Origin: Candidatus Omnitrophota bacterium
GTDB taxonomy: Bacteria; Omnitrophota; Gorgyraeia; B26-G9
DNA: 33,341 nt
Direction: 5' to 3'
Assembly: GCA_016213925.1 (NCBI GenBank)
Contig: JACQZH010000003.1
Location: forward strand, 1 to 33,341
Part shown: positions 3 through 25,472 of the stretch, piece after piece
Numbering within the stretch: the stretch's first letter is position 1
Layout: each line of letters starts with the position of its first letter
The notes under the pieces: generated by a model
Told to the model about the DNA's origin: nothing
The model's input: only the letters and a program-made list of their open reading frames with translations
The model's database searches: none
Made by a program: the position numbers and the translations under genes

Positions 3-2444
3 TTTGAAGCGGCCAAACTGCGTTTGCAAAATAGCATATCAATAGAATTTTTTAGGAAATTTTCTAAGGAAAATTCTGTTGTGTTGATAAATATAGTTCC
101 TGGAGAAAAGGTAAGTATAAATAATGGGGGGAATGAATTTGGCCTAATTATTAATGTTGGAGCCGGACTGCTTTTGTCAGATAAGGATTACCTTGCTCAG
201 GAGATTGAAAAAGCATTCGATAATTTCAAAGGCGCGGTTTTAAAAGGAGCGGCGGATATGGAGATAAACGCTAAAAAAACGCTAAAAGATACGCCGGTGT
301 TATTATTAGACTTTTTCGATAACGATAATGAACGAACAAGCATGATATCCGGGCCGTCTCTAGGGAATATATTTCTGGCAATGGGTTTGCGTAAAAAAGG
401 TTTCTTAAGGGTTGGCTTTGACCGGGGGGATATAAATAGCGGAAACGAAGATATTATAGAAAGGATTAAAAAAGAAAAGATAAAAGTTCTCGGGATATCA
501 ATAATTACTCCGCATATAGAGGAGTTGAAAGCGGTTCGGGAACTTGCAAAAAAAATAAGGCAGGCGAACAAAGATATTATTATTGCGGTTGGCGGGCCTT
601 CGGTTAGTTTGGCTTTGGACCTTATTGCTGTGCATATTCCGGAAGCTAATATCATTGTTGCCGGTGAGGCCGAGGAAGCTTTCCCAAGTATACTTTCCGC
701 CTTGGCCGGTAATAATGCAAGCGAAGATATCCCGCTAGATTATGCAGCAACCTTGAAAACATTTTTTGGGACTTATTTAAGATTCGGGCAGACGTCGTTT
801 GCTGCGCATTTAGATTATCTGAACTACTTTTCATCGCTGGATAAGGTTGTTGAAAGTATGAAAATAGAGTTTAGTTTTTTAAAAGAGGAAGCTATTAAAA
901 ACGGGATGGTGTTTATTACAAGCCGCGGATGCCCCTATAAATGTACTTTTTGCGCGCAGATCATGGGGACGCAGTACCGGACGTTTTCCCCTGAAAATAT
1001 AAAAAAGATTTTTTCGGAATATAAAAAACATGTACAGGCTCTATTTAAAGCAAAAAAGATATCACAAACAGAGATGACTAAGGCGATGGTCATAGATTTT
1101 GTGGATGATGACTTTTTTCTTAATAAAACCAGGGCAAAAGAAATATTGAAAGAAATTAAAACACTTGGTTTTTCCTGCCGTTCGATTAGTGTTTCTGTAC
1201 GGAGTTTTTTTAAAAGCCGGGATGGCAGGAGGGTTATTGACCGCGAAATATTTGAGCTTATTGCAAAGTTAGGTTCGTTAGATAAGATCTATATTGGAAT
1301 TGATGGTTTTACAGACTCGGAATTAAAAAGGCTGGGCAAGGGCGGGAAGAGCGGGTATACTCTTGAAGAGGCTAAGCAGATTATAGCTATGTGCCAGGAA
1401 TATGATATAAAATGTACGAGTTTTTTTATTTTAATAAATTCGCAGACCGCCTGGGATGATTTTTGGGAAGCATTATTTACGCTGGATATTCTTGCCCAGG
1501 AAAACGCTTCCTTTGGAATCTGGGGGAACTCTTTTCTTGAGTATTACGTGAATACTCCGGCTTTTTTTCAACTTGTATCAGCGCCTGATTTTGACCAGGA
1601 TCTGCTCGTGACAAATAAAATGACTGTCAAGGGGTTCCCTGAATACGGCATTATTTTCCCGGTAATTTATAAAGACGGATTAGCGAGGGTTTCGGCGCAA
1701 ATGGTTGCAGAAAGGTTTACTGCTTTAACGAAAGTATCGCAGGATATCCCGGTTAAGGCAATACTTTCTGAAGCTATGGCGTATATGCTTTTATATAGCG
1801 ATAAAGACGGCTATGGTATGGGGAAAAGCTTTGCGCAAAGAAAACGTGTGATTGGCTTATTCGATGAATTTATCAGCAGAAGATTAGAAATAGTAGAAGA
1901 ATATTTGTCCAAAAGTGAAAAAGAAATTTGGTTTGCGTGTAATTCTACTTCCAGGAAAGATAATAATGAGCTAGCGGAATTTGTGCTTTCTCTGGAAAGC
2001 CTGATATTGATGAATGAAATATTTGATTCCTTGAATATCAAGCTCGCAAAAAATAAAGATTTGAGAGAAGCTCTTACGGATATTACGCCTGGAGTAGAGG
2101 CAGTATCAGCAACACTAAGCAATTATGCAGGTGAACCTCAAATTACGATGTTTTCGCGGTATTTGGAAAAAGCGGCGAATGTATTAAGCGGCGATATTTC
2201 GCGTTGGCGCTATCTGGGTGAGAGATTCAGGCTGGGAGAAACTTTATTTACTCAATTAGAAAAATGGATTAAGGCAGGTGTCCCTGAAGAGAGGATAATA
2301 AATAATCTCAATTTGTCAAACCCGGGATTAAAAAGCGCAGTGTTTAACGCTCTTAATATACAGGAACAGGATTCCGGGCAAAAAGTTATTGTTAGAAAAA
2401 CAAACAGCACTAAATTTGAAAAATTAATAGCACAGGCAATATAA
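3..2444 (+). CDS. B12-binding-domain radical SAM protein (5' partial), C-terminus AQAI
   Basis: The frame is open to the window edge, and a TTG at 24 has no Shine-Dalgarno, so the true start is probably upstream. Counting from that TTG, residues about 90-230 look like a cobalamin-binding Rossmann domain (LGISIITPH, AVGGPS, AGEAEEAFP). Residues about 290-520 form a radical SAM barrel with the 4Fe-4S motif CPYKCTFC (Cys303, 307, 310). The last ~280 residues are mostly helical and not recognised. Family members perform SAM-radical methylations or rearrangements, often on lipids, cofactors or peptides; the substrate here is unknown. The protein ends in Ala-Gln-Ala-Ile, matching the ends of the next four genes. 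The DxHxxG cobalamin ligand motif is not obvious, as is common in this family. Fusion to another upstream domain is possible. Confidence 0.85.
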   Translation, partial: FEAAKLRLQNSISIEFFRKFSKENSVVLINIVPGEKVSINNGGNEFGLIINVGAGLLLSDKDYLAQEIEKAFDNFKGAVLKGAADMEINAKKTLKDTPVLLLDFFDNDNERTSMISGPSLGNIFLAMGLRKKGFLRVGFDRGDINSGNEDIIERIKKEKIKVLGISIITPHIEELKAVRELAKKIRQANKDIIIAVGGPSVSLALDLIAVHIPEANIIVAGEAEEAFPSILSALAGNNASEDIPLDYAATLKTFFGTYLRFGQTSFAAHLDYLNYFSSLDKVVESMKIEFSFLKEEAIKNGMVFITSRGCPYKCTFCAQIMGTQYRTFSPENIKKIFSEYKKHVQALFKAKKISQTEMTKAMVIDFVDDDFFLNKTRAKEILKEIKTLGFSCRSISVSVRSFFKSRDGRRVIDREIFELIAKLGSLDKIYIGIDGFTDSELKRLGKGGKSGYTLEEAKQIIAMCQEYDIKCTSFFILINSQTAWDDFWEALFTLDILAQENASFGIWGNSFLEYYVNTPAFFQLVSAPDFDQDLLVTNKMTVKGFPEYGIIFPVIYKDGLARVSAQMVAERFTALTKVSQDIPVKAILSEAMAYMLLYSDKDGYGMGKSFAQRKRVIGLFDEFISRRLEIVEEYLSKSEKEIWFACNSTSRKDNNELAEFVLSLESLILMNEIFDSLNIKLAKNKDLREALTDITPGVEAVSATLSNYAGEPQITMFSRYLEKAANVLSGDISRWRYLGERFRLGETLFTQLEKWIKAGVPEERIINNLNLSNPGLKSAVFNALNIQEQDSGQKVIVRKTNSTKFEKLIAQAI

Positions 2445-2589
2445 ATGCGCTTAAAGTAAGAAGCGGATAGCCATAGTCCAAAAATCAAAAATCCATGATT
2501 TATTATTGCTGCTTAATGGTTTCCCCATGTTTAGTTAGCATATCTTATTGAAATACAATAAGTTACATTCACGAAAATCCTCTAAATTA

Positions 2590-2619
2590 TTGGCAAAATT
2601 CCTTAAATCATGGTATACT
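2590..2619 (+). promoter_or_regulatory. sigma70-type promoter with extended -10
   Basis: TTGGCA at 2590-2595 is followed after 18 bases by TATACT at 2614-2619, preceded by TGG (extended -10). It lies in the 286-base gap before the 231-residue secreted protein gene and predicts a leader of about 105 bases. No terminator is visible after the radical SAM gene. Confidence 0.55.
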
Positions 2620-2730
2620 TTTAAACCTTTTTTAACTGGACAGAACAGGAGTTAACTTCTTTATTTTAAAATAGTTAAAAAATGAAAACGCGGATAAACT
2701 TAGCTCTTATAGCTTTAAAATTTTAAAATT

Positions 2731-3426
2731 ATGAATAAGCTAATAAAAATAATTTCATTTATATTGGTCCAGATGTTCTTATTTCTGAATCTTCCTTCTG
2801 CCGGGATGGCAAATATTCTTGGAACAGAAGATAAAGCGCTTAAAGGCTATTTATCTGCGCGTCTTTCGTTAACCAGCAGGTCTTTAGAAAAAGTATTTGC
2901 GTATTATCAGAGTAATGGGCAGTCTTTCGTAAGGCGGATTGATTTGCAAAATAATGAAGAAGGCAGGATTTTAACAGCAGAGCAACAAGTTGAGCCTGCG
3001 TGGATAAAGGCGCTGATCGCAAATAGCGGCGCGTTTTGTTCCGGACTGATGGTGTTAGGTGTTGCCTGTGTTATCGTGAAATTGTCAGGAGTTGATTTTA
3101 ACTTTGCGGATATGGTAAATAACTGCGGGCAATTAACGCAAATGGCAGATAATAGTTTATTCATAGGAATTATTGATATATTCAGCGGGCCAAAGGAATA
3201 CCGGCCGGCCCTGAAAAAAGAAGAAAACCCATTAGTGCCGAAAATTCCACCGGCAACAGAAAGCGTTGCTTTAAATAATGGAAGGCAGGAAGGAAAAACC
3301 GCGCCGGGTTTAAAGAAAAGACAGGAAAAACTTTATCCGGTAGGAGATGTTTTAAAAGACAGTGTTACTTTGAGCGCGCAGGCAATAGAATTGTATTCTT
3401 TGCAAAGTATTGCGCAATCGATATAA
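2731..3426 (+). CDS. Secreted protein of unknown function, C-terminus AQSI
   Basis: 231 residues, no recognised family. It starts with a Sec-type signal peptide (Lys-rich start, hydrophobic run with Gln14, possible cleavage after LPSAG or slightly later), followed by an 'LSARLSLT' box at residues 41-48. A hydrophobic segment around residues 93-112 (SGLMVLGVACVIVKL) could be a membrane helix or buried strand. A Pro/Lys-rich linker follows around 150-190, and the chain ends in Ala-Gln-Ser-Ile. There is no clear Shine-Dalgarno: the bases before ATG are AT-only. It is the first of four neighbouring genes with the same N- and C-terminal signatures, so I infer co-targeting to one place. The function itself cannot be named. 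Confidence 0.75.
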   Translation: MNKLIKIISFILVQMFLFLNLPSAGMANILGTEDKALKGYLSARLSLTSRSLEKVFAYYQSNGQSFVRRIDLQNNEEGRILTAEQQVEPAWIKALIANSGAFCSGLMVLGVACVIVKLSGVDFNFADMVNNCGQLTQMADNSLFIGIIDIFSGPKEYRPALKKEENPLVPKIPPATESVALNNGRQEGKTAPGLKKRQEKLYPVGDVLKDSVTLSAQAIELYSLQSIAQSI

Positions 3427-3566
3427 ATAGACGCAAGATACAGGCTGCAAGATGAAAGACAAAAGCAAGAAACGAAAAGCTTAAATTGAATGAGAAACTA
3501 TTCGGTATTTTTATTATTTTTTTGTCATGAGTTTTGTAGCATGAGGCTTGGAGCTTAATTAAGATT
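3427..3566. repeat. Low-complexity intergenic repeat remnant
   Basis: The gap contains quasi-repetitive words (GCAAGATACAGGCTGCAAGATG; later a near-complementary GTAGCATGAGGCTTGGAGCTT). This style of degenerate wordy sequence recurs in several other gaps of the window. No promoter or terminator stands out. Confidence 0.35.
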
Positions 3567-5066
3567 ATGAAAAAAATACTAAAGATAACTTCAATACTAT
3601 TAATTCAGGCTCTTTTTATAAGTACTGCCTCTATCGGTGCTTGCGCGGGGAATAGTTATTTATCCCCTAAGGTGCAGATAAATGCTGGTTTATTTCAGAA
3701 TGATTTTTCTCAAGCCGGCGTCAATAAACTAAAAATTGCGGATGCTTTTGAAGTGCTGGCGTATGAATTATGTAATAAAGGGGTGGATACAGATAGCGTA
3801 ACGCTAATGTTTCTTGGCATACATGAAGCGGATAATCCGGGAAAAGTATTGACTGAGTTAATGGATATAGCTGATTTATTGGACTTTTCCCAAACGCATA
3901 CCAGCCTAACCTGGTATTTAAAAGCCATAATTTCTTCAGTAGTCGGGTCAAAGGATATTAAAAATTTTATTAATGAATTAAATGCTTCTACTAAGGCTCT
4001 GGCATATTTTTTAAAAGAGCTTAATAAGAAAGGGATCGATGACGTTTTTGTTCAGCAAATTTTAGAAAACATTTTAGCAAGCCCCGGTATCCTGGAAAAG
4101 GTCAGGATGTTAAATCGCATAGTGAAGATTATTGAATTAATAGGCATGGAAGAGGACTCTTCAATATCAATAATTATGGCTGCGTCTTATTTAGACGTTG
4201 TTATGCTGAACAAAGCTTTGCTTGGTGTTAAAAATATTGTTAAAAATTTACCGCAAATAGAACCTGACAAATTAAGTATTGAACAAAAATTCCGTGAATT
4301 TAAGAAACAGGGAAAATTATTAAGAAGAATTGTCGCTGTTTATGATCCACAAACGGGCAGAGGAATAGGCAGCGCTTTTGTCGCGCAAGAGACAAAAAAT
4401 CATTATATTCTTTTTACAAATTCGCATGTAGCTGGCGGGCATGACGGGCTTATATTGAAAACAAATGGCGATGGGGCGCAACTAATCGGAAAAGCGGATG
4501 TTTTAATAAAACATAAAAACAAAAGCCCTTTATTTGACGACATCGCGGTTTTAATCCTGGACAAAAGGCAGGCAGCAAAGAATGGTGTGAAACTAATTCC
4601 GATTGAATTTAGCGAGGATGTCAGCGATGGAGAGTTAGCTGTGTTGGTTAGCGGATATAATAGCACAGTATCAGCTGGGTGGTTGATTCTGATGGGCAAT
4701 GCGGTTTTCTTAATCGGCGCTGAAAATATAAGAGGTGATTCAGGGGCTCCGATCATTGTAAAGAAAGGCGATGAATTTTTTGTTAAAGCGATAAATACCG
4801 CGGCAGGCCCGAAAGGAATGATTTTTTCCCAGGCGCATAAAGAAGAAATAATACGCTTGATTAAAGAGAAGGAAGTTTCAGAGGAAGGCAGGTTTATAAT
4901 GGCGCTTTCTAAATATAGCAATGTTTTAAGTGGAAGTATTGATGCTGCGGCAAGTGTGAATAAAGAGTTGGAGGAATTGGGGAAAGTGTTTAGCTCTATC
5001 GGAACGGTTAATATGCCTAAAGAAAATTCAGGATTTAATTTTAGATTTATTCAGGAATCGATTTAG
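3567..5066 (+). CDS. Secreted trypsin-like serine protease, C-terminus QESI
   Basis: 499 residues. The signal peptide has Gln14 in its hydrophobic core; cleavage could be conventional or at a lipobox-like IGAC (Cys26). The box 'LSPKVQIN' follows at residues 32-39. Residues about 50-250 are helical and unrecognised. Residues about 255-430 form an S1-type (chymotrypsin/trypsin-fold) protease with the full triad: His287 in TNSHVAGG, Asp325 in DDIAVLIL, Ser392 in RGDSGAP. The chain ends Gln-Glu-Ser-Ile, a variant of the tail seen on its neighbours. A protease encoded among proteins sharing N- and C-terminal signatures makes it a candidate processing enzyme for them, but that is inference. The enzyme would act outside the cytoplasm. 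Confidence 0.85.
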   Translation: MKKILKITSILLIQALFISTASIGACAGNSYLSPKVQINAGLFQNDFSQAGVNKLKIADAFEVLAYELCNKGVDTDSVTLMFLGIHEADNPGKVLTELMDIADLLDFSQTHTSLTWYLKAIISSVVGSKDIKNFINELNASTKALAYFLKELNKKGIDDVFVQQILENILASPGILEKVRMLNRIVKIIELIGMEEDSSISIIMAASYLDVVMLNKALLGVKNIVKNLPQIEPDKLSIEQKFREFKKQGKLLRRIVAVYDPQTGRGIGSAFVAQETKNHYILFTNSHVAGGHDGLILKTNGDGAQLIGKADVLIKHKNKSPLFDDIAVLILDKRQAAKNGVKLIPIEFSEDVSDGELAVLVSGYNSTVSAGWLILMGNAVFLIGAENIRGDSGAPIIVKKGDEFFVKAINTAAGPKGMIFSQAHKEEIIRLIKEKEVSEEGRFIMALSKYSNVLSGSIDAAASVNKELEELGKVFSSIGTVNMPKENSGFNFRFIQESI

Positions 5067-5190
5067 ATACAGTGTTTAGCGGTTAGGAGAAAAACTACAA
5101 AGCTGTAAAGAAATAAGACATAAACGGCAACCATCTTCTGGATATCTCAATAGAAACGTATGATTTACGGTATATGGGTTATATAAAGTT

Positions 5191-8010
5191 ATGAAAAAAT
5201 TATTTCAAATAATTTCAATATGGTTAATTCAGGCGTTGTTTATTGCGCAAGCGCAAGCTTTACATGAGGCTTTTCCGGTTGAAGGAAATTTTAATTATCA
5301 GGATACATTATCAGCGCCGCTTAACATGCAGACGAATCAGATAAAAGGTGCTTTCATTGATTTAATTGGCTCTTTTACCGGACGCAAAGAAAAAATTATA
5401 AACAACGCTTTAATAAATGTTTTTTTTGAAAGGGATGCGCAGTATTATGGAGGTAATTTTAAAAGCAGGATTTTGGAATTTATTAATAGCAAAAATAAAT
5501 TGGCCGGAGAAGTTATAAATAGCGTTGATGCGATGGATAAAAGAGAAATCACGTTTGAAGGAAAAAAGATTTTAGGAAATTTCAATAAGGAGCCGGTTAA
5601 CCAAGAATGGAAGCCAAGGTTAGTTGCGAGATGGCAGGACTTTGTTAGGATAAGCACTCAGGGAGAATATGACATGCATCAGCTTGTATTCAATACTTTG
5701 GGCACGGCTAATATTCTTCTTCAAATGCCAACGGAAAATACTTCGGGGCTGGATGTTCAAAAAAACATCGAAAATGTCCGTAAACTTTTTAAAAATGCCT
5801 ATATTATTCTATGCGCGATAGCAATAGAAGCCGAAGAGTTAGAAGCAGGTCTTGAGGCCTATGAACAGGATCTTAAATCAGAAGATAGTGAAGTGCGTTT
5901 ACAGGCTGCAGTAGTATTCGCAGCTTGCGGCAGGAAAGATGACCCTTTGGTCAGGGATATCTTTAGGAAATCTGCGGTTGATGAAGCTTTAACTCTTGCG
6001 CAGAGGATTAAAGCGGCGGAATATTTAACCAAAGAGGAAATCAATCCAATAGGTTATCAAATAAGGCGTTTTAAGGAACATTATGATTTTATAGATAAAA
6101 GAAGCCTGGAAGTGTTAACTCAAGGCTCAATGCCAGGGCGAACGATAGCTGAAGCGGAAGAGCTTATTAGAGGAATTGAAAATATAGATAAAAGGCAAGC
6201 GGATATCCTAATAGAAAGGTTGAAAAAAATTGATTGGGAAGGCGCGCAATTAAGTAAGATTGTAAGAGGAATCGAATTTTTTAACGGGCTATGGAAGCAG
6301 CAGCTAAAAGAAGTTTTATGCTTGGAGCATGATTTCCATCAGGCGCAGGCGGAAGAACTTATGGATAAAGATGTGCCTGATGAGATTATTTTTTCTAGCG
6401 CTGATTATATCTGGGCGGCTATTTTCAGCCAGGAGGTCGTACAGCGTTTGCAAAGGAAAAATACCGTGATGCTGTCCGGAGACCGGGAATGGTTTTTCCT
6501 TGAGGCGTTTAAATTAGTTAGGCAATTTAGCGGGTATTCAATGCCGGATAGGGGCAACAGTATCAAAAGCATATTAAAAAATAAGTGGGAGAAATCAACA
6601 GCAATAAACAGGAATGTCAATATCTTTGATAATCTTAATCAAATGGGCTTATATAGGAGTAATTTTAAATCAGCGGTTACGGAAGAAGCGGTATTGGCTG
6701 TAGCAAATCAATTTATCAGCCGCGCGTATCTTGATGGAGATTCCGTGGAATTTTCTCCCGGGCCGTGTCTTGACAAAAGGGCAATTGCTGTAGGCATAGA
6801 GGCTAACCCGGCGGAAAAAAATGATGCAGTGCATATAAATCATGACACGGAATGGGCTTCTAAATACATCTGGGCTGCGTATCTTGCTTTGTATGAATAT
6901 ATTAAGCCGGAGACGTTTTCAAAGGTAATTTTTGATTATTATTACAGCCAATTGTCAAGCAATACAGGTAATCCTAACGGAATCGGACGCAGGATTTCTT
7001 ATATCGGGATCCGGCTTGAGGATATTAAGGATTTAGATGAAGTGTTAGGGATATTCATCCCCTTGAGCATTGCTTTAGAAGCATATATGGATAAGGAAAA
7101 TCAAAGCCTGGCTCAAATATGGAGAAGTTTTCGGTTAAAGTTTGAGGATATTGTCCGCGCGCAGAATGATGAAGCGCTTAATAAAGAATTTTTCCAGCAG
7201 GCAAGGATGAAAAGGTTTGTGGAATTGGTTTCAAAAAATAACCGGGATAATGAATTTTTTCCTCAAATTAAAAATCTGCTTGTTGAGACTTTGCATGATA
7301 TCGATGAACAGCAAAAAAAAGACAAAGAAAAACCCGGATATTTAGAGAGCCGATTAAAACCGCTTAAAAAAAACGCGGTTACTTTGAATGAAGAGGTTAG
7401 TATTGTTTTTGGGCAGAAAAGGCAAGGCAGCACGCAGGCAGCGGTTTCTAAAACGCAGGTGTTATTGAAAAATGATAATACGCAGGAGCGGTTTTTAATT
7501 TCTCTTATTCCCCAAAGGGCTCCGGTTGCCGGTATAATGAAAAGATACATCAGTATCCGCGGAAAAAAATACTGGGTGTTTAAAGAGAGTATCCGTGAGT
7601 CGGGAAATCATAAAAATTCGTTTAATTACCAAAAAGATAAGAATCAAAGATATATAGTTTTAAACGGAAGAAAATATATTGAAACGGATAAAGGGCTGCG
7701 GGAAGAAAGCACAGGAAGAAATTTTTTGTATATGCGCCAGGGGTTTAAGCATTTAATTTCTTCTTCGATCGATATGGGAGGCAGAACCTACAGGATCAGC
7801 CGGGACGGGATTACTGATGCCCTTACGCGGAAGAAATTTTACTTTAAAAGAGATGGGCAGGGGAAGTTGATTGTTGATTTGAAAGAGATAACCGGCAATA
7901 CGCAATTAGCTAATTTTTTTGATTTCCCAAAAGTTATTAAAAAACCGGATTTGCCCCTTTCTCCGATGTTTTTACCCCAGGAGACGATTCTTTTGGGGCA
8001 ATCAATTTGA
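5191..8010 (+). CDS. Large secreted protein of unknown function with C-terminal repeats, ends GQSI
   Basis: 939 residues. The signal peptide has Gln14 in the core and a plausible AQAQA cleavage site, then the box 'LSAPLNMQ' at residues 40-47. Residues about 215-280 resemble HEAT-like helical repeats (SEVRLQAAVVFAACG...). A long, mostly helical middle has no recognised family. Near residues 790-910 three related segments of about 45 residues share G-[KR]-[KT]-Y, then a charged loop and T-x-[RK]-x-F-x-[YF] (IRGKKYWV, LNGRKYIE, MGGRTYRI). These suggest a small beta-rich repeat, possibly for binding a wall or polysaccharide. It ends Gly-Gln-Ser-Ile. No Shine-Dalgarno is visible before ATG. The gap upstream (5067-5190) holds no recognisable element. 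Confidence 0.75.
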   Translation: MKKLFQIISIWLIQALFIAQAQALHEAFPVEGNFNYQDTLSAPLNMQTNQIKGAFIDLIGSFTGRKEKIINNALINVFFERDAQYYGGNFKSRILEFINSKNKLAGEVINSVDAMDKREITFEGKKILGNFNKEPVNQEWKPRLVARWQDFVRISTQGEYDMHQLVFNTLGTANILLQMPTENTSGLDVQKNIENVRKLFKNAYIILCAIAIEAEELEAGLEAYEQDLKSEDSEVRLQAAVVFAACGRKDDPLVRDIFRKSAVDEALTLAQRIKAAEYLTKEEINPIGYQIRRFKEHYDFIDKRSLEVLTQGSMPGRTIAEAEELIRGIENIDKRQADILIERLKKIDWEGAQLSKIVRGIEFFNGLWKQQLKEVLCLEHDFHQAQAEELMDKDVPDEIIFSSADYIWAAIFSQEVVQRLQRKNTVMLSGDREWFFLEAFKLVRQFSGYSMPDRGNSIKSILKNKWEKSTAINRNVNIFDNLNQMGLYRSNFKSAVTEEAVLAVANQFISRAYLDGDSVEFSPGPCLDKRAIAVGIEANPAEKNDAVHINHDTEWASKYIWAAYLALYEYIKPETFSKVIFDYYYSQLSSNTGNPNGIGRRISYIGIRLEDIKDLDEVLGIFIPLSIALEAYMDKENQSLAQIWRSFRLKFEDIVRAQNDEALNKEFFQQARMKRFVELVSKNNRDNEFFPQIKNLLVETLHDIDEQQKKDKEKPGYLESRLKPLKKNAVTLNEEVSIVFGQKRQGSTQAAVSKTQVLLKNDNTQERFLISLIPQRAPVAGIMKRYISIRGKKYWVFKESIRESGNHKNSFNYQKDKNQRYIVLNGRKYIETDKGLREESTGRNFLYMRQGFKHLISSSIDMGGRTYRISRDGITDALTRKKFYFKRDGQGKLIVDLKEITGNTQLANFFDFPKVIKKPDLPLSPMFLPQETILLGQSI

Positions 8011-8041
8011 AGCGGTTTTACCAAGGAGAGAGCAGTTTGTT

Positions 8042-8872
8042 ATGAAGCATAGTTTTTGTGAAGAATTTAAAAAGAAAATTGTAATGGGGTTATTGCAACT
8101 ACTTTTACTTTGCAATTTAGCTTATGCGGAAAACTTTGCCAATCCCGATAGTTTTAAAACATATGACTGCTTGTCTCCTGGTTTAAATATCAATAACTTC
8201 AAAAATGTGTTCATGGCGGTAAATAGGCCGGCAGGAAGCGCGGCCTTTGCAGATAGGTTAGCGGATTCTTCGTTGTATGCGGTAAATCCATTGCTTGCTT
8301 CGTATCTAACCAATGCAAATGATTACAATTTTTTTGATTTGGTTAAAGAGGGATATGAATTTGGCATCCGCGAAGAGATTGATGAAGAAATGGGAATATT
8401 ACGCGTGAAAGTAGAAATTTTTCAGCATGGGGAACGAGTAAACGGGAAAGAGCTGTCGTTTTTGGTTTTCTTTGAGTTTAAAACAATAGTTGTGGAAAAT
8501 TTTTATCCGGAATTCACCGAAGGAAAGAACAATAGAAACAGGCAGAATAAAAATGGGAAGGGAAGAGCACTGTTAAGTTATTTATTGTCTATCCCCGAGT
8601 TTGAAGATTATGAAATAATATCTGTCGCGGAGGAGCCGTTTCAAAAATCAGTGCTTAAAATGCCTGTTTATCAGCCCATGGCTGATATCGAAGGGGTTAC
8701 GGTTTATGAAAGAATAAGCAAACAGAGGCTGGATAGCATGGGAAGCGCTAAAGCTGCAAATCCTGCTTTGGAAAAACTGCAGGAGATTTGGTTTCAAACA
8801 ACTATATACGCGAAAATTCCTAAAGCAGAGGCGATATTAAATACTTCTAATGTTACAGATCAAGCGATATAG
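8042..8872 (+). CDS. Secreted protein, possible GNAT-like fold, C-terminus DQAI
   Basis: 276 residues from ATG 8042, preceded by AAGGAGAG; the longer open frame from 7919 overlaps the previous gene and lacks a signal sequence, so I reject that start. The signal peptide (Gln19 in the core, cleavage near LAYA) is followed by the box 'LSPGLNIN' at residues 44-51. A segment around residue 185 (NGKGRALLSYLL) resembles the acetyl-CoA-binding motif A of GNAT acetyltransferases, between plausible beta strands. This is weak, and acetyl-CoA would not be expected outside the cytoplasm, so the fold may have been repurposed. It ends Asp-Gln-Ala-Ile. It is the last of the five tail-sharing genes. Confidence 0.7.
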   Translation: MKHSFCEEFKKKIVMGLLQLLLLCNLAYAENFANPDSFKTYDCLSPGLNINNFKNVFMAVNRPAGSAAFADRLADSSLYAVNPLLASYLTNANDYNFFDLVKEGYEFGIREEIDEEMGILRVKVEIFQHGERVNGKELSFLVFFEFKTIVVENFYPEFTEGKNNRNRQNKNGKGRALLSYLLSIPEFEDYEIISVAEEPFQKSVLKMPVYQPMADIEGVTVYERISKQRLDSMGSAKAANPALEKLQEIWFQTTIYAKIPKAEAILNTSNVTDQAI

Positions 8873-11355: not shown

Positions 11356-11440
11356 GTTTGTATTCTCTGGAAAACGGTTTATGAAAAAATGCTTCTAAAG
11401 TGTGAAAAATGTAATGACGTCCCGAATGTAAATGCTCTTT

Positions 11441-11545
11441 GGAGTATGCATCGGGACTCCGAAGAGAAGCATGAATATACGGCTTCATTCGGGGCAAAGC
11501 TGCGGGTCTAAAGCTTTAAGCAATGACAGCCGGGCATACCGACAA
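11441..11545 (+). ncRNA. Probable cyclic di-GMP-I (GEMM) riboswitch
   Basis: The 3' half is close to the GEMM-I consensus: GGCAAAGC, then GCGGGTCTAA, a short capped stem, then ATGACAGCCGGGCATACCGA. The closing helix is present, GTATGC (11444-11449) pairing with GCATAC (11534-11539). The internal hairpin (CTCCGAA..GAAGC / GCTTC..TCGGGG) is longer than usual and its loop is not a clear GNRA. The 5' conserved strand is also divergent, so ligand specificity (c-di-GMP versus cGAMP) is uncertain. It sits in the leader of the 1490-residue secreted protein. Confidence 0.7.
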
Positions 11546-11565
11546 CGCAAGAAAAGCCAAAACAG

Positions 11566-11602
11566 CCAAGCTGCCAAAGGTGATAAACGGAGCTTGGTTT
11601 TT
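11566..11602 (+). terminator. Intrinsic terminator, expression platform of the riboswitch
   Basis: CCAAGCT (11566-11572) pairs with AGCTTGG (11591-11597), with an extra CC/GG step, followed directly by TTTTT. It lies between the aptamer and the AAGGAAGG ribosome binding site at about 11611, the layout expected for transcriptional control by the riboswitch. Confidence 0.7.
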
Positions 11603-11623
11603 ATATTAATAAGGAAGGCTTTA

Positions 11624-14600
11624 ATGAAAACAAGCAATTTAAGAAAAAAGATTTGGTTTAAAGTCATTAGCTTAAGTATGATGCAATTATTCATGCTTAA
11701 TTCTATTGTTTTCGCTTTTGATTTCCAGGATTCTGCTTATAAGAATGATAATAGAAATGATTACAGGGATAAATTTAATAGCCAAGTGGCGATGCTTAAT
11801 ATCCCTGCTAATTCTGTAATCCCCATGTCTAAAGAATCCACCGCGCGTGATATAAATGATGTTTCAGATGTTGATTATAATCTTATAATTGAAAATTTGA
11901 AGGGATGTGATTTAAAGACTAAATGTGCGATATTAAAAACGGTTGGCTGCTCTGAATTGCAGGCAGCAACGAGGCTGACTGAAAAAGGATATAAAGCTGA
12001 TGATGTGGCCAAAAGCCTCAAAGAAGAGGGCTTTGATCAGGAAAAGGTCGCTGACGCAATTGAAACTATTATAAAAAAAGAAAGAAATTTTTCGTCACAG
12101 GAAAATGTTTCTAAGAATACTTTAAAGACAAGCGCCGAGGAAGAAAAAGGAAGTGAAAAAGAGGAAAGTGAAGAGTATGTTGAACAAGGGCTAGCTTTGG
12201 AAAAAGATAAGAAAGAGCGCTTGGAAGTTAACCGGCAAATTGATTTTATCATTGAAAAAGAAGCAGAAAGAATAATAGAGAAAACGATTCGGGATGATGC
12301 GTTGCAACGGCAGGTTATTGAGGTTGTTAAGTTAATGCTTAATGAAGGCAAGCGCGGTGTAGTATTATTTGAGGTTTTAAAGAAATCCGGATTTTCCAAT
12401 GAGAAGATTATCAGCGCGCTTTTATCAGTAGGAGTTGACTTAAAGGAAATTATTTCCATGTTCAAGCAGGCAAATATCAGCTGCGAAGATATTGTGAAGG
12501 CGTTATTTAGCTCCCAGTCCAGTTATTCTGCTAAGGAAATATATGCCGCGCTAATTGCCTGTGGTTACGATGATGAAGAAATTATCAGCGCTTTTAGAAT
12601 ATCCGGCATAGCAGCAAATGAAATATTGAAGATTAGTTCGGAATTAGGCCGCGATATGATCAATGTTGCTAAGGCTATGATTAAAGCAGGATTTAGCTAT
12701 ACGCAGATTGCAAAAGCATATTTGCTTAAAGCAATGAAATGGACTTGGGATAAGAGCGTTGACATTATTAACTGTGCGGTAAAGGCGTTTGACGCGTTTA
12801 TTACTAATATCAGTAGAAAAATTTCTTCAAAAGAAGATTTGGCGTATACGCTTATTGTCGAAGACATACTTAATGCCGGAAAAGTTGTTATAGAAGATCA
12901 AAATGTTATGACAAGCATGTTTGCGATTAAGAAAGTCGCGAATGATTTTGGTGTTAATTTAGACGGATATAATATCGGACTAGAAACACTTAAAGAGCTT
13001 GAAAACGGAGCAATAATTAATCTGGATAATAATCACTGGGTAACTTTTGCCGGTGTAGAAAAGGATATGGTTACGATAATTGATAACGGCGAGAAAAAAC
13101 AAATTTCTTTATTTGAATTGAAAATGCGCTGGGATAGCAATGCTTTGCTGGTAAATAAAAATAAAAGCGGTTTAAAAAATATTAATGATTTGAAAATGAG
13201 GCAAATCCGGGGAGGAAGAAGCGCAAACAACGCTTGGAAGGCTATTCAGAGAGAAGTTGGTAGAGAGAGGAAAGATCTTACAAAGCCGGTAGATGAATAT
13301 ACCGGCGAGGCAGAAGAGTTGTTGGGAGTGGATGAGTATAGGGGAAGCTCTAACTTTTTTGCGCAAATGTATGTAGATGGTTTTGATGCGAATGTTGCAA
13401 TGGGAGAAATGAATAGCGGGATTACGGCAACAGAATCAACAGCGTTAGCTACTGAAGGCCAGTTTACGGATGCGTTTACAAATGCTGCCGAAACTCCGGA
13501 TGAGTATTCAAGCGCTCCCGCTACAGATGAATTAATAGAAAAAGTTGACGGGATTAGCGAGGATATCGCGGAAGCTTTAAATATTGATGAGTATAGAAGC
13601 AGTTCAAACTTTTTCGCGAAGCTTCATGTGTCTTCATATGATGCTGTAGATATGTTTGTTGATGGGGAAGTAAATTATATGAAGTCTATGGCGTTAGCCG
13701 GTGAGGGCAAATGGGAAGAGTCATGGGATACGCTTTGCGTGGCGCAGTACCAGTTCAATGGAAATGCTTCGCAGGTTTGGATGGGGCTGATGAGTGAGGA
13801 TGATGCCAGGGAAGTAGGTAAAGTGGTTAAGCCGATTATTACTGCTGTTTGCACGATTATCGGCGGATATTTAGGCGGGGATGAAGGCGCGGCGATTGGC
13901 GCTTTTGTCGGTACTTTGTGTTCTTCGATGTTTGATTATGATATGCAGCAGATGGCTAAAAATAATAATAATGTGGATGGATTCAATAAGGGGCTTGGGA
14001 TATACGCTAAATACGCGGTGATTTCAGCAGCAGCTGCGTATTGTTCCTCATGGCTGGGCGGTGAGCTTGGAGATTGGTGGAGTGGCGGCAGTGAGGCTGC
14101 CGGAGGTACTGCGGGAGGGACAACAGGAGGAACTGCAGGCGGGGGGGCAACAGGAGGGGCTGTTGGCGGAGGCACTACCAGCGTAGGAACATCAGCTGGT
14201 ACGGGCCAGGTAATAAGCGCTGCTGTGCAACAGGCAGTTAAGCAGTCTCTATCAAGCTATGTGCTTACTTATGGGCTGGATAAAGCCGGCGTAGATGACC
14301 CGTACTTAAGGGCGGCGATAATCGGGATTGTCGGTGCTTATAGCGGCAGTCAGGGCTGGGGAGTTGACACCCAGAGTATGGTTGAAGGATGTTTATCTAA
14401 TGTGGCAATGGAAGGCATAAGAGAGCTTGGAGAAGATCAGGGCTGGGACCCGGCAATCACTGAAAGCTTGGCTGCGATTGTTGGCACTATAGTTACTTCT
14501 GCTGTTGATGCAGGATTTGACACGTATGCAGCGAGTAATAATAATGTTACTGAAACAGGAACTGACTCGGCTGTTACTGACAGTACAGAGGATGAATCAG

Positions 14601-16096
14601 AGCCTCCTGCGGGAGGTGATATTGTTTTAACTGATTCAACAGGTACAGTGAATACTTTTACCAATAGTTTTTCTAATAATATGAAAAATTCCGCAGGGGA
14701 TCTTTGCGCGAAAATTGCCAGCAATATTGTTGTGGCTGTTGCTGAAAAAAATGGAGCAGGGCCTGAAGTTACGCAGATGCTTAGTTATGTAGCCAAAAGC
14801 CTTACTAAGGATGCGGTTAATGCCGGATTAAGTGAAAATGAAAAATTTACCTGGTCTGATGTGGGTAAGGCAGCTAAAGAAGGACAGAGCGCGCTGATTG
14901 TTACAGGCATGCGTAATTATCTTGTTGATCAATGCGGAATGACAGAAGAAGACGCGACAGCTGTCATATATTCAGCGATGGTTAGTGCGGATATGTCTGC
15001 GACAAACAATAACATAGGTAATGAAAATTCAAACTCGCTTGGGTTAACGCTCACGAATAATCTAAATAGCTTAGTCAATGGTCCGGGCTATGAGGGAAAC
15101 GCGTATGATCGCGCCAGTTATACGAATACTTTTAACACTAACGCGGAAAACCTTGATAATAGCGTTAATAACAACGGGAATAGTTTTATAAGCGCGTATT
15201 CGAATTTAAAGAGCGAAGAGGTTAAAGGCCGGCAGATGAGTTATTCGATTGAAACTTTTGATACAATGATAAACGCTGCTGAGACTGGAGTTAAGCAGCA
15301 TCTGGCAAAGAAGCAAGCAGAAAAGCAAAATATTGAGCTTGCACACAATAGCCTGACAGGACAACAATTGATTGAAACGTTTAAAAATGAGGAACCCGGA
15401 TTGCATGTTTATGGCGATATGGATAATAATAAGCCGACAATGTTATTGATACATGGAGCAGGCGGTGAGCCGGCTGACTTTGCGTTTTTTGTGGATACAT
15501 ATCAGGGCGAGTATAATATTGTTTTTTATACATATAGTCAAAAAGATGATCTTGATCAGACCTCCAGCAATCTTATAGCTGAATGGGGAACTTTTACTAG
15601 TGAGAATGGAGTGGAAAATACTGTGGTAGTGGAGCATTCTTTTGGACAAACAGTATTTCGGAATGCCGTTATTAATGATGGAACAGGAGTGTTTAACAAT
15701 GCAGACTCAATAGCATTGACACCAATATACGGCGGGGATGCAGGAGCAGAAGGCAGTTCAACTGGGGTGGCAGGGGTTGTTACCGGAGTCGCTGGATATG
15801 GCAATACAGTTAACGCAGTAGATCCTTTAGGAGAAAAGTCGCAGTCATTATACAGTTCAAATAACCTTAATCTGTTTAATGAAAGAGTAGGTTCTAATAA
15901 TGTTATAATGATACAAGGTGATACGCATAGCCCTAATAATAGTTCTTCGGAAACTTTTACTAATAACTGGCAAAATGCGTTTAATTCTGCTAATATCTCG
16001 GTATCCTTAGAACAAACAACCACATATTCGCATACTGAAGCTTTAGTCTCGCCAATTGCTCGAGAGGTTTTTGATGACATGCTTAGAAACCGCTGA
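11624..16096 (+). CDS. Giant secreted multidomain protein with C39-like and lipase-like domains
   Basis: 1490 residues from ATG 11624, chosen because AAGGAAGG precedes it and a signal peptide follows (Gln21 in the core, cleavage near VFA); the longer frame from 11432 runs through the riboswitch. In order: acidic linker; about 200 residues of short two-helix repeats of the type 'ALxxxGxxxEEIxxA'; a C39-peptidase-like domain (about residues 400-515) keeping NHW and IDNG but with no candidate catalytic Cys; two copies of a ~45-residue module starting DEYR.SSNFFA; glycine-zipper segments around a Gly/Thr-rich linker; and a C-terminal alpha/beta hydrolase with LLIHGAGG and nucleophile motif EHSFGQ (Ser1339). 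It looks like an exported enzyme or effector. The tail is LRNR, not Q[SA]I. Expression is likely set by the upstream riboswitch. Confidence 0.8.
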   Translation: MKTSNLRKKIWFKVISLSMMQLFMLNSIVFAFDFQDSAYKNDNRNDYRDKFNSQVAMLNIPANSVIPMSKESTARDINDVSDVDYNLIIENLKGCDLKTKCAILKTVGCSELQAATRLTEKGYKADDVAKSLKEEGFDQEKVADAIETIIKKERNFSSQENVSKNTLKTSAEEEKGSEKEESEEYVEQGLALEKDKKERLEVNRQIDFIIEKEAERIIEKTIRDDALQRQVIEVVKLMLNEGKRGVVLFEVLKKSGFSNEKIISALLSVGVDLKEIISMFKQANISCEDIVKALFSSQSSYSAKEIYAALIACGYDDEEIISAFRISGIAANEILKISSELGRDMINVAKAMIKAGFSYTQIAKAYLLKAMKWTWDKSVDIINCAVKAFDAFITNISRKISSKEDLAYTLIVEDILNAGKVVIEDQNVMTSMFAIKKVANDFGVNLDGYNIGLETLKELENGAIINLDNNHWVTFAGVEKDMVTIIDNGEKKQISLFELKMRWDSNALLVNKNKSGLKNINDLKMRQIRGGRSANNAWKAIQREVGRERKDLTKPVDEYTGEAEELLGVDEYRGSSNFFAQMYVDGFDANVAMGEMNSGITATESTALATEGQFTDAFTNAAETPDEYSSAPATDELIEKVDGISEDIAEALNIDEYRSSSNFFAKLHVSSYDAVDMFVDGEVNYMKSMALAGEGKWEESWDTLCVAQYQFNGNASQVWMGLMSEDDAREVGKVVKPIITAVCTIIGGYLGGDEGAAIGAFVGTLCSSMFDYDMQQMAKNNNNVDGFNKGLGIYAKYAVISAAAAYCSSWLGGELGDWWSGGSEAAGGTAGGTTGGTAGGGATGGAVGGGTTSVGTSAGTGQVISAAVQQAVKQSLSSYVLTYGLDKAGVDDPYLRAAIIGIVGAYSGSQGWGVDTQSMVEGCLSNVAMEGIRELGEDQGWDPAITESLAAIVGTIVTSAVDAGFDTYAASNNNVTETGTDSAVTDSTEDESEPPAGGDIVLTDSTGTVNTFTNSFSNNMKNSAGDLCAKIASNIVVAVAEKNGAGPEVTQMLSYVAKSLTKDAVNAGLSENEKFTWSDVGKAAKEGQSALIVTGMRNYLVDQCGMTEEDATAVIYSAMVSADMSATNNNIGNENSNSLGLTLTNNLNSLVNGPGYEGNAYDRASYTNTFNTNAENLDNSVNNNGNSFISAYSNLKSEEVKGRQMSYSIETFDTMINAAETGVKQHLAKKQAEKQNIELAHNSLTGQQLIETFKNEEPGLHVYGDMDNNKPTMLLIHGAGGEPADFAFFVDTYQGEYNIVFYTYSQKDDLDQTSSNLIAEWGTFTSENGVENTVVVEHSFGQTVFRNAVINDGTGVFNNADSIALTPIYGGDAGAEGSSTGVAGVVTGVAGYGNTVNAVDPLGEKSQSLYSSNNLNLFNERVGSNNVIMIQGDTHSPNNSSSETFTNNWQNAFNSANISVSLEQTTTYSHTEALVSPIAREVFDDMLRNR

Positions 16097-16836: not shown

Positions 16837-17272
16837 GGGGGTGAAAGGTTTCGACTTAGGTGGATTTAGTAAGAGCAGCATGCCGAGGTGGTCGGGAGGC
16901 CTCGTTAAACACCTGGCAAACAAATAAACGCAAAAGCTGAAACGGAAGTTCCAGTAAGCGTGGACGCGCTTCTTTCGAAAATCGGTGAGGGTATTTCTCA
17001 TCCTGTTTTCGGGGGATTTGTTCCCGCTGCATGTGTTGCTTTAAGATAAAGCAGCCCGTTTGTTAATCTTCGTCTGGCAGGTTAATGAACGTCATTTACA
17101 GACTCGTCCCGCTTGTTTGCTTTTGGCATGCGGGATTAAAAGTTCAAAAGCTGCCTTTTGGCATATCCTGCCTATCGGAGATGCAAAAAGAAAGATTCGT
17201 AGATAGAATAAACATGTAGATACTCTTATAGATTGCTTGAGGACGCGGGTTCGATTCCCGCCACCTCCACCA
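16837..17272 (+). ncRNA. ssrA: tmRNA (transfer-messenger RNA)
   Basis: The 5' GGGGGTG pairs with 3' CACCTCC before ACCA, and the T-arm GCGGGTTCGATTCCCGC is intact. Pseudoknot 1 is visible (CGAGG..CCTCG, with GGTG..CACC). At 436 nt it is longer than the usual 350-400. Aligned with the E. coli resume site, translation would resume at GCA 16930. That frame reads AKAETEVPVS..., stays open for 39 codons and stops at TAA 17047-17049 inside a GCTTTA/TAAAGC hairpin, ending ...AACVALR rather than the usual ...LAA. Other frames stop almost at once (ANK; QTNKRKS). The gene identity is certain; the tag reading is tentative. Confidence 0.95.
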
Positions 17273-24754: not shown

Positions 24755-25472
24755 AAGAAAACCTGAAGCTATGCGTAAGGTTACGATAACAAAAAATGTT
24801 ATGAAATACGCCGAGGGCTCTTGTTTGATAGAGGTGGGAAATACTAAGGTTATTTGTACTGCATCCTGCGAAGAAAAAGTCCCGGTATTTTTGCGTGACA
24901 AGGGAAGCGGCTGGATAACTGCCGAATATGGAATGCTGCCGCGTTCCTGCCGGACGCGGATTGTCAGGGAGGCAAGTATCGGCAAGCTAGGCGGCCGGAC
25001 TCATGAAATACAGCGCTTGATCGGCAGGTCATTGCGCGCGGCAGTTGATTTAAATCAGCTGGGAGAAAGGACAATCTGGATAGATTGTGATGTTTTACAG
25101 GCTGACGGAGGCACTCGTACGGCAAGTATTACCGGCAGTTTCATCGCGTTAGTGGATGCTTTGCATAAGCTTCAAAACGAAGGGAAGATTGCTATTTTCC
25201 CTGTTAGAAAATTTGTTGCCGCGGTAAGCGTGGGAATTATTGAGCAAGTACCGATGCTTGATCTGGATTATGAGGAAGATTCAAATGCGCAAGTAGATAT
25301 GAATGTTGTGATGACTTCTCTGGGTGAATTTATCGAACTTCAGGGCACTGCTGAAAAATATCCCTTTAACCAGAAACAGCTTCAGGTATTAACTCAATTA
25401 GCGAAAAAAGGCATAAATAAACTCATTGGTTTGCAGAAAAAGGCGTTAAAAGATTTACCTTTTGCTATATAG
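24738..25472 (+). CDS. rph: Ribonuclease PH
   Basis: 244 residues from ATG 24738 (AAAGGAG at 24722), which overlaps the fumarase gene by 17 bases; the upstream in-frame ATG would add unrelated sequence. A phosphorolytic 3'-5' exonuclease that trims tRNA 3' ends. Family motifs: N-terminal [54 protein letters not shown], and [14 protein letters not shown] with the metal-binding Asp residues. Confidence 0.96.

Follow-up and report, generated by a model that had tools for sequence, protein, structure and literature searches.

Contig C9 of a draft Candidatus Omnitrophota genome (2.27 Mb in 81 contigs), which is 33,341 bp long and makes up the whole of the stretch studied (hereafter the window), carries five consecutive genes whose products have nearly the same C-terminus. 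The products of the genes ending at 2444, 3426, 5066, 8010 and 8872 end in IAQAI, IAQSI, IQESI, LGQSI and TDQAI. A first-pass annotation had described a Q-[SA]-I tail shared by all five; strictly, the tripeptide is present in four, the protein ending at 5066 reading Q-E-S-I, and [SA]-I is common to all. Codons and stops vary, as had been stated (stops TAA, TAA, TAG, TGA and TAG in gene order). The bodies are dissimilar. Pfam bears out the radical SAM call for the first protein and adds a B12-binding domain; for the third, the protease call has a weak Pfam match, with TNSHVAGG and GDSGAP motifs visible; and the label 'GNAT-like' given to the fifth finds no support in Pfam. Across 156 aa, the 939-aa protein shares 29% identity with a tailed protein from genome G003. 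Four of the five genes also encode a signal peptide and a conserved box close behind it (Table 1). Beyond 9 kb no gene of the tagged class was found, in agreement with the first reading; RNase PH at 25472 ends in DLPFAI, a chance case with no signal peptide.

Table 1. Tagged genes of the window, their sequence elements, and the candidate secretion locus elsewhere in the genome
Feature	Position	Strand	Evidence or remark
B12-binding/radical SAM protein	3..2444	+	PF04055 2.3e-16, PF02310 2.9e-14; truncated at the 5' end, where the contig begins; ends in KLIAQAI
C-terminal tail LIAQAI	2424..2441	+	terminus read from sequence
Exported protein, body unknown, 231 aa	2731..3426	+	all three elements; N-terminal profile E=2.5e-18
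Signal peptide MNKLIKIISFILVQMFLFLNLPSAGMA (predicted cleavage)	2731..2811	+	N-terminal pattern
TLSP-type box YLSARLSLTSRSLEKVF	2848..2898	+	sequence
C-terminal tail SIAQSI	3406..3423	+	sequence
Exported trypsin-like protease candidate, 499 aa	3567..5066	+	all three elements; N-terminal profile 1.3e-16; PF00089 E=0.0023, under cut-off
Signal peptide MKKILKITSILLIQALFISTASIGACAG (predicted cleavage)	3567..3650	+	N-terminal pattern
Box YLSPKVQINAGLFQNDF	3657..3707	+	sequence
C-terminal tail FIQESI	5046..5063	+	sequence
Exported protein, body unknown, 939 aa	5191..8010	+	all three elements; N-terminal profile 6.2e-19
Signal peptide MKKLFQIISIWLIQALFIAQAQA (predicted cleavage)	5191..5259	+	N-terminal pattern
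Box TLSAPLNMQTNQIKGAF	5305..5355	+	sequence
C-terminal tail LLGQSI	7990..8007	+	sequence
Exported protein, body unknown, 276 aa	8042..8872	+	all three elements; N-terminal profile 9.4e-18; Pfam: no match
Signal peptide MKHSFCEEFKKKIVMGLLQLLLLCNLAYA (predicted cleavage)	8042..8128	+	N-terminal pattern
Box CLSPGLNINNFKNVFMA	8168..8218	+	sequence
C-terminal tail VTDQAI	8852..8869	+	sequence
Secretin locus, candidate secretion machinery	L346 (G000:C40:1-19500) in this genome; L347-L351 in relatives		

The tail is not peculiar to the window, which is one among several clusters. Across the genome it takes the form L-[IV]-E-Q-[AS]-I and occupies the very last residues of the protein. A whole-genome search with CARKCNATHTRR gave 71 matches and the reversed control 33; hence, measured against chance as the first-pass annotation had proposed, the tail stands well above background. 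Approximately 25 long proteins end in Q[AS]I, typically behind two hydrophobic residues, and a further cluster of them is located on contig C34. Among Q[AS]I-ending open reading frames (ORFs) of at least 150 aa in the stretches read, which were taken around matches, 22 of 25 possess both a signal peptide and an LSP-type box. In the other three the 5' end is missing: the radical SAM gene is cut off where the contig begins, and each of the remaining pair lies right behind a signal-peptide fragment, one past an N-run and the other past an apparent frameshift. Several tagged genes are apparently broken by a frameshift, in-frame stop or N-run, with box and tail fragments in adjacent frames (L103:2986-3372, L059/L100, L015/L064, L050:4370-7603). 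A mild excess of Q[AS]I-stop matches over the reversed control also occurs in some other families of the class (genomes G028, 65 vs 32, and G031, 88 vs 53).

At the N-terminus, the signal peptides are of the Sec type and follow the consensus K-I-[IT]-[SA]-L-I-L-I-Q-A-F-L-L-x-[DN]-x-A-W-A|G. The box, [SD]-[TCY]-L-[SA]-P-x-[LIV]-[QN]-[IL]-[ND]-x3-[FL]-Q-x2-[FY], starts a median of 16 residues past the predicted cleavage site. A profile built from 18 N-termini, with no tail information, matches 48 places in the genome, of which approximately 17 are proteins outside the training set. Nearly all of the latter have a tail variant (LVEAAI, LVNAAI, VIEEAI, VETSI, LVGRAI, LIEGAI, LIGQSI, AIESAI, YIDSAI, LIDRSI or IIENSI); since these ends vary at position -3, Q is the commonest residue there and not a rule. 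There is at least one exception, L103, which adjoins a second ORF bearing the tail in another frame and thus points to a frameshift. In this genome, the 42 profile places account for approximately 4.7% of the assembly. A 1,554-aa ORF of the window (11432-16096), with a C39 peptidase-like domain, has a similar signal peptide, KVISLSMMQLFMLNSIVFA, and neither box nor tail (it ends in DMLRNR).

The association between the two ends was also found in 11 relatives, from which complete ORFs were picked by their N-terminus alone. The ends [AS][IV] and [AS]I occur in 81 and 75 of the 86 ORFs, respectively, compared with 1 of 33 other ORFs (Fisher p=1.4e-22); the control ORFs number only 33 because the relatives' stretches had been chosen around profile matches. 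Information content is 0.39 bits at -7, 1.15 at -6, 1.96 at -5, 1.20 at -4, 2.22 at -3, 2.74 at -2 and 2.85 at -1, and this jump between -7 and -6 indicates that the motif is exactly terminal and comprises the last six residues. All 12 genomes of the family contain matches to the N-terminal profile, at 6-47 places each, and the tail is conserved over at least nine genera of that one family. When 285 Omnitrophota genomes were searched with a 69-sequence profile (E<=1e-7), matches were obtained in all 8 members of the family (3-22 each) and in 9 of the 277 others (1-2 each), where they are partial, most of them covering no more than the signal peptide of a very long ORF. Weak matches in other families of the class likewise involve mainly the signal peptide, in ORFs that run past the stretches read. 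The FBPase fusion of this genome had no match in a collection of genome contigs, and its rpsB was closest to Candidatus Omnitrophota records, at no more than 67% identity, which supports an assignment to the phylum only. No tagged protein was present in 80 Candidatus Omnitrophota loci matched via rpsB.

Several observations show that the tail is maintained independently of what precedes it. In an all-against-all comparison, homologous bodies lose similarity hundreds of residues before both C-termini, and both proteins are still tailed. Full-length orthologues differ just upstream of the tail yet keep it: the members of a 60% identical pair end in KASLGHYYLIRQAI and SSSLNNQDLLLQAI, and three FBPase-aldolase-TIM orthologues end in VLVGRAI, VLIDKAI and AFLERAI. 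Orthologues thus retain [AS]I and two hydrophobic residues at -6/-5, the Q not always. Even giant proteins have both ends (7,423 aa, NILVEQAI; 8,031 aa, ELINNAI; 9,619 aa, LLLEQAI). In whole-protein alignments, conservation is confined to the two ends, the bodies being unrelated or shuffled. Tagged genes do lie in clusters (the window, C34, C13, C67), as would be expected if the tails were chance resemblances or remnants of one duplicated C-terminal gene piece. However, conservation covers only six residues, codons and stops vary, and the tails outlast divergence or exchange of the bodies and of the residues just before them; such an origin is very improbable. Box and tail co-occur nearly one to one, which would also suit a structural clasp in which they bind each other, or dock side by side on one subunit, and close the ends of the protein with no part in sorting. 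A clasp, however, would require neither an exact free C-terminus nor restriction to the exported proteins of one family, and we give it little credence. AlphaFold2, applied to box-tail packing in a three-sequence family, returned a mean predicted local distance difference test (pLDDT) score of 36.5.

A tail that survives divergence and shuffling and accompanies a signal peptide and a box is most naturally read as a sorting or export signal. This idea of the first-pass annotation gained from the follow-up, which traced the tail genome-wide together with a Sec signal peptide and a second, N-terminal motif; neither outcome named beforehand as refuting it, a frequency at chance level or orthologues without the tail, was observed. 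We propose that the tail is probably the C-terminal part of a two-ended address tag on a large, lineage-specific exported proteome, and that this tag most likely serves as a dedicated signal for sorting or secretion after Sec export. The proposal is also favoured by searches for Pfam and NCBIfam sorting domains, which gave no match. According to this model, Sec would carry the unfolded tagged protein over the inner membrane, and signal peptidase I would remove the signal peptide. A dedicated periplasmic receptor would then recognise the box, the short amphipathic tail or both. The second step would most likely be secretion via an outer-membrane channel, and the foremost candidate for this is a type II-like system built on secretins. 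Genomes of the family encode 5-10 secretins, compared with 2-7 elsewhere (per Mb, p=0.002). Moreover, a conserved locus that encodes an ATPase, TPR proteins, a GspC-like protein and a pair of secretins approximately 4-7 kb apart recurs in at least six genomes; in the genome studied here it shares a contig with two tagged genes.

The first-pass annotation had also raised recognition by a PDZ-type protease. A nonpolar C-terminal A-I is the type of end that Tsp/Prc proteases are generally known to accept, and an S41 protease is present in 35 of 38 genomes, mostly as a single copy; a periplasmic tail-specific or PDZ protease might thus trim or degrade the proteins unless they are exported or folded. 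However, the copy numbers of S41 and PDZ_2 are alike in families with and without the tail, and both were rejected on this ground as lineage-specific partners. Furthermore, the hydrophobic residues of the tail are spaced so as to line a single helical face (helical moment 0.55 vs 0.37 shuffled; strand moment 0.21 vs 0.35), whereas a strand-type ligand would be expected for PDZ, and the co-conserved N-terminal box is left unexplained. The PDZ idea is accordingly not supported, and a proteolytic signal in general appears improbable. Tagging by tmRNA was likewise rejected as the source of the tails, which are genome-encoded. The window has a tmRNA gene at 16837-17272 (Rfam 178.8 bits), for which ARAGORN gives an unusually long and probably wrong tag whose end is unlike the tails.

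Several points weigh against a post-Sec address tag. Signal peptides were assigned by eye and by pattern, without a trained predictor. The set from the genome itself was partly collected by tail, and only the statistics from relatives are unbiased. Two members of the family, G004 and G007, have few tagged proteins. The link to secretins is a correlation, the two-secretin locus having been looked for within the family only, and neither a receptor nor a processing enzyme for the tag was identified. All of the genomes are drafts.

Many of the exported bodies look like cytosolic enzymes. Sugar enzymes encoded in this genome include GDE with GH77 and a glucan-dikinase-like domain, FBPase GlpX with class II aldolase and TIM, PGM with an isomerase-like domain (called solely from visible GGSSL and SKSGTTGET motifs) and ROK, pyruvate kinase with fucose pyrophosphorylase, and PPDK; in addition, there are an ARMT1 phosphatase, radical SAM/B12 proteins, an AAA helicase and methyltransferases. 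Relatives add UDPGP, NAD(P)H-hydrate dehydratase, HD, GGDEF, IGHMBP2-like helicase, Fis/HTH, guanylate kinase and nicotinate-nucleotide adenylyltransferase-like domains. An exported 1,071-aa protein (G000:C67:5915-9100; L099:4907-8119) contains a circularly permuted enolase, with Enolase_C ahead of Enolase_N, and a canonical, cytosolic enolase is encoded separately on C51. Some exported copies may be inactive or repurposed, as catalytic competence, assessed by eye, suggests: the exported pyruvate kinase keeps the region of the catalytic Lys but not the sequence contexts NFSHG and GDLG. Elsewhere in the class, the large exported ORFs of another family (L216, G013:C53:6000-12500) have an N-terminal region of a different kind in common (LKGLxFDPANPLxxEFI..), and one of them, with enolase segments, ends in AYKK and has no tail. 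Judging from these ORFs, exported metabolic proteins may extend wider than the tail.

The apparent dependence of much of this cargo on ATP, NAD, S-adenosylmethionine (SAM) or nucleic acids suggests a destination with cytosol-like contents. As a speculation, the proteins would more likely be delivered in the end to a second cell, whether host or prey, or to some cytosol-like compartment than act in the periplasm. More specifically, the linear address formed by the TLSP box and LIEQAI might direct to a partner cell, or to a compartment enclosed by a membrane, a whole set of cytosol-type proteins (nucleotide kinases, glycolytic and glycogen enzymes in divergent form, NAD-synthesis-like enzymes, DNA-binding proteins and helicase), a proposal that we advance only tentatively. 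Alternatively, the tail could be a compartment or retention signal that holds Sec-exported proteins in the periplasm, or in an internal compartment derived from it, where a second carbon metabolism would operate. Such a signal would share the anatomy of KDEL and SKL, with exact last few residues on unrelated bodies, and the glycogen and glycolytic cargo (the GDE-GH77, PGM-isomerase-ROK and FBPase-aldolase-TIM proteins, pyruvate kinase, permuted enolase and PPDK), standing beside a canonical enolase, would suit it. However, no compartment of this kind is known, the periplasm is not where ATP, NAD and SAM would be expected, and a pyruvate kinase lacking the NFSHG and GDLG contexts argues that some copies are perhaps inactive or repurposed; we consider retention unlikely.

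If it is indeed an address tag, the motif pair would provide a sequence signature for an apparent dedicated export pathway in Omnitrophota, for which a predatory or symbiotic lifestyle is suspected (PMC10066038), and link the unexplained giant ORFs of the family to the same pathway. Approximately 40 candidate cargo proteins from the best-covered genomes have been listed and can be tested. No known bacterial periplasmic biology would readily accommodate exported versions of glycolytic enzymes, should these be active. The label looks undescribed, as the open-access literature searched contained no account of a signal like it in Omnitrophota, and it resembles known kinds of sorting signal. Cargo of type IX secretion in Bacteroidota also combines a Sec signal peptide with a C-terminal signal common to unrelated proteins; that signal, however, is a folded domain of approximately 80 residues, whereas here positions -6 to -1 are conserved and an N-terminal box is added. 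A search for SprA gave no match in 13 genomes, nor did it in the control genomes. The PEP-CTERM/exosortase, GlyGly-CTERM/rhombosortase and LPXTG/sortase systems are likewise lineage-specific C-terminal sorting signals on many unrelated exported proteins. They consist of a motif, a transmembrane helix and a basic end, whereas in the tagged proteins there is no basic end, the motif is the terminus and the preceding sequence is neither conserved nor transmembrane; no NCBIfam sorting model was found in the 40 proteins scanned. As in KDEL/HDEL of the endoplasmic reticulum and the peroxisomal targeting signal PTS1 (SKL) of peroxisomes and glycosomes, a few exact C-terminal residues are found on unrelated bodies, and glycosomes share the glycolytic cargo; those signals are eukaryotic, whereas the present one is bacterial, uses other residues and is coupled to an N-terminal box. 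The box, in turn, recalls PEXEL of Plasmodium and RxLR of oomycetes, short motifs lying approximately 15-25 residues behind a signal peptide, as the box does, but differing in sequence and organism and having no matching C-terminal tail. Finally, type II secretion substrates are carried first by Sec and then through a secretin channel, and secretins and a GspC-like gene are present in this genome; type II substrates, however, have no known linear motif in common, and the tie between the secretin locus and the tagged proteins is correlative.

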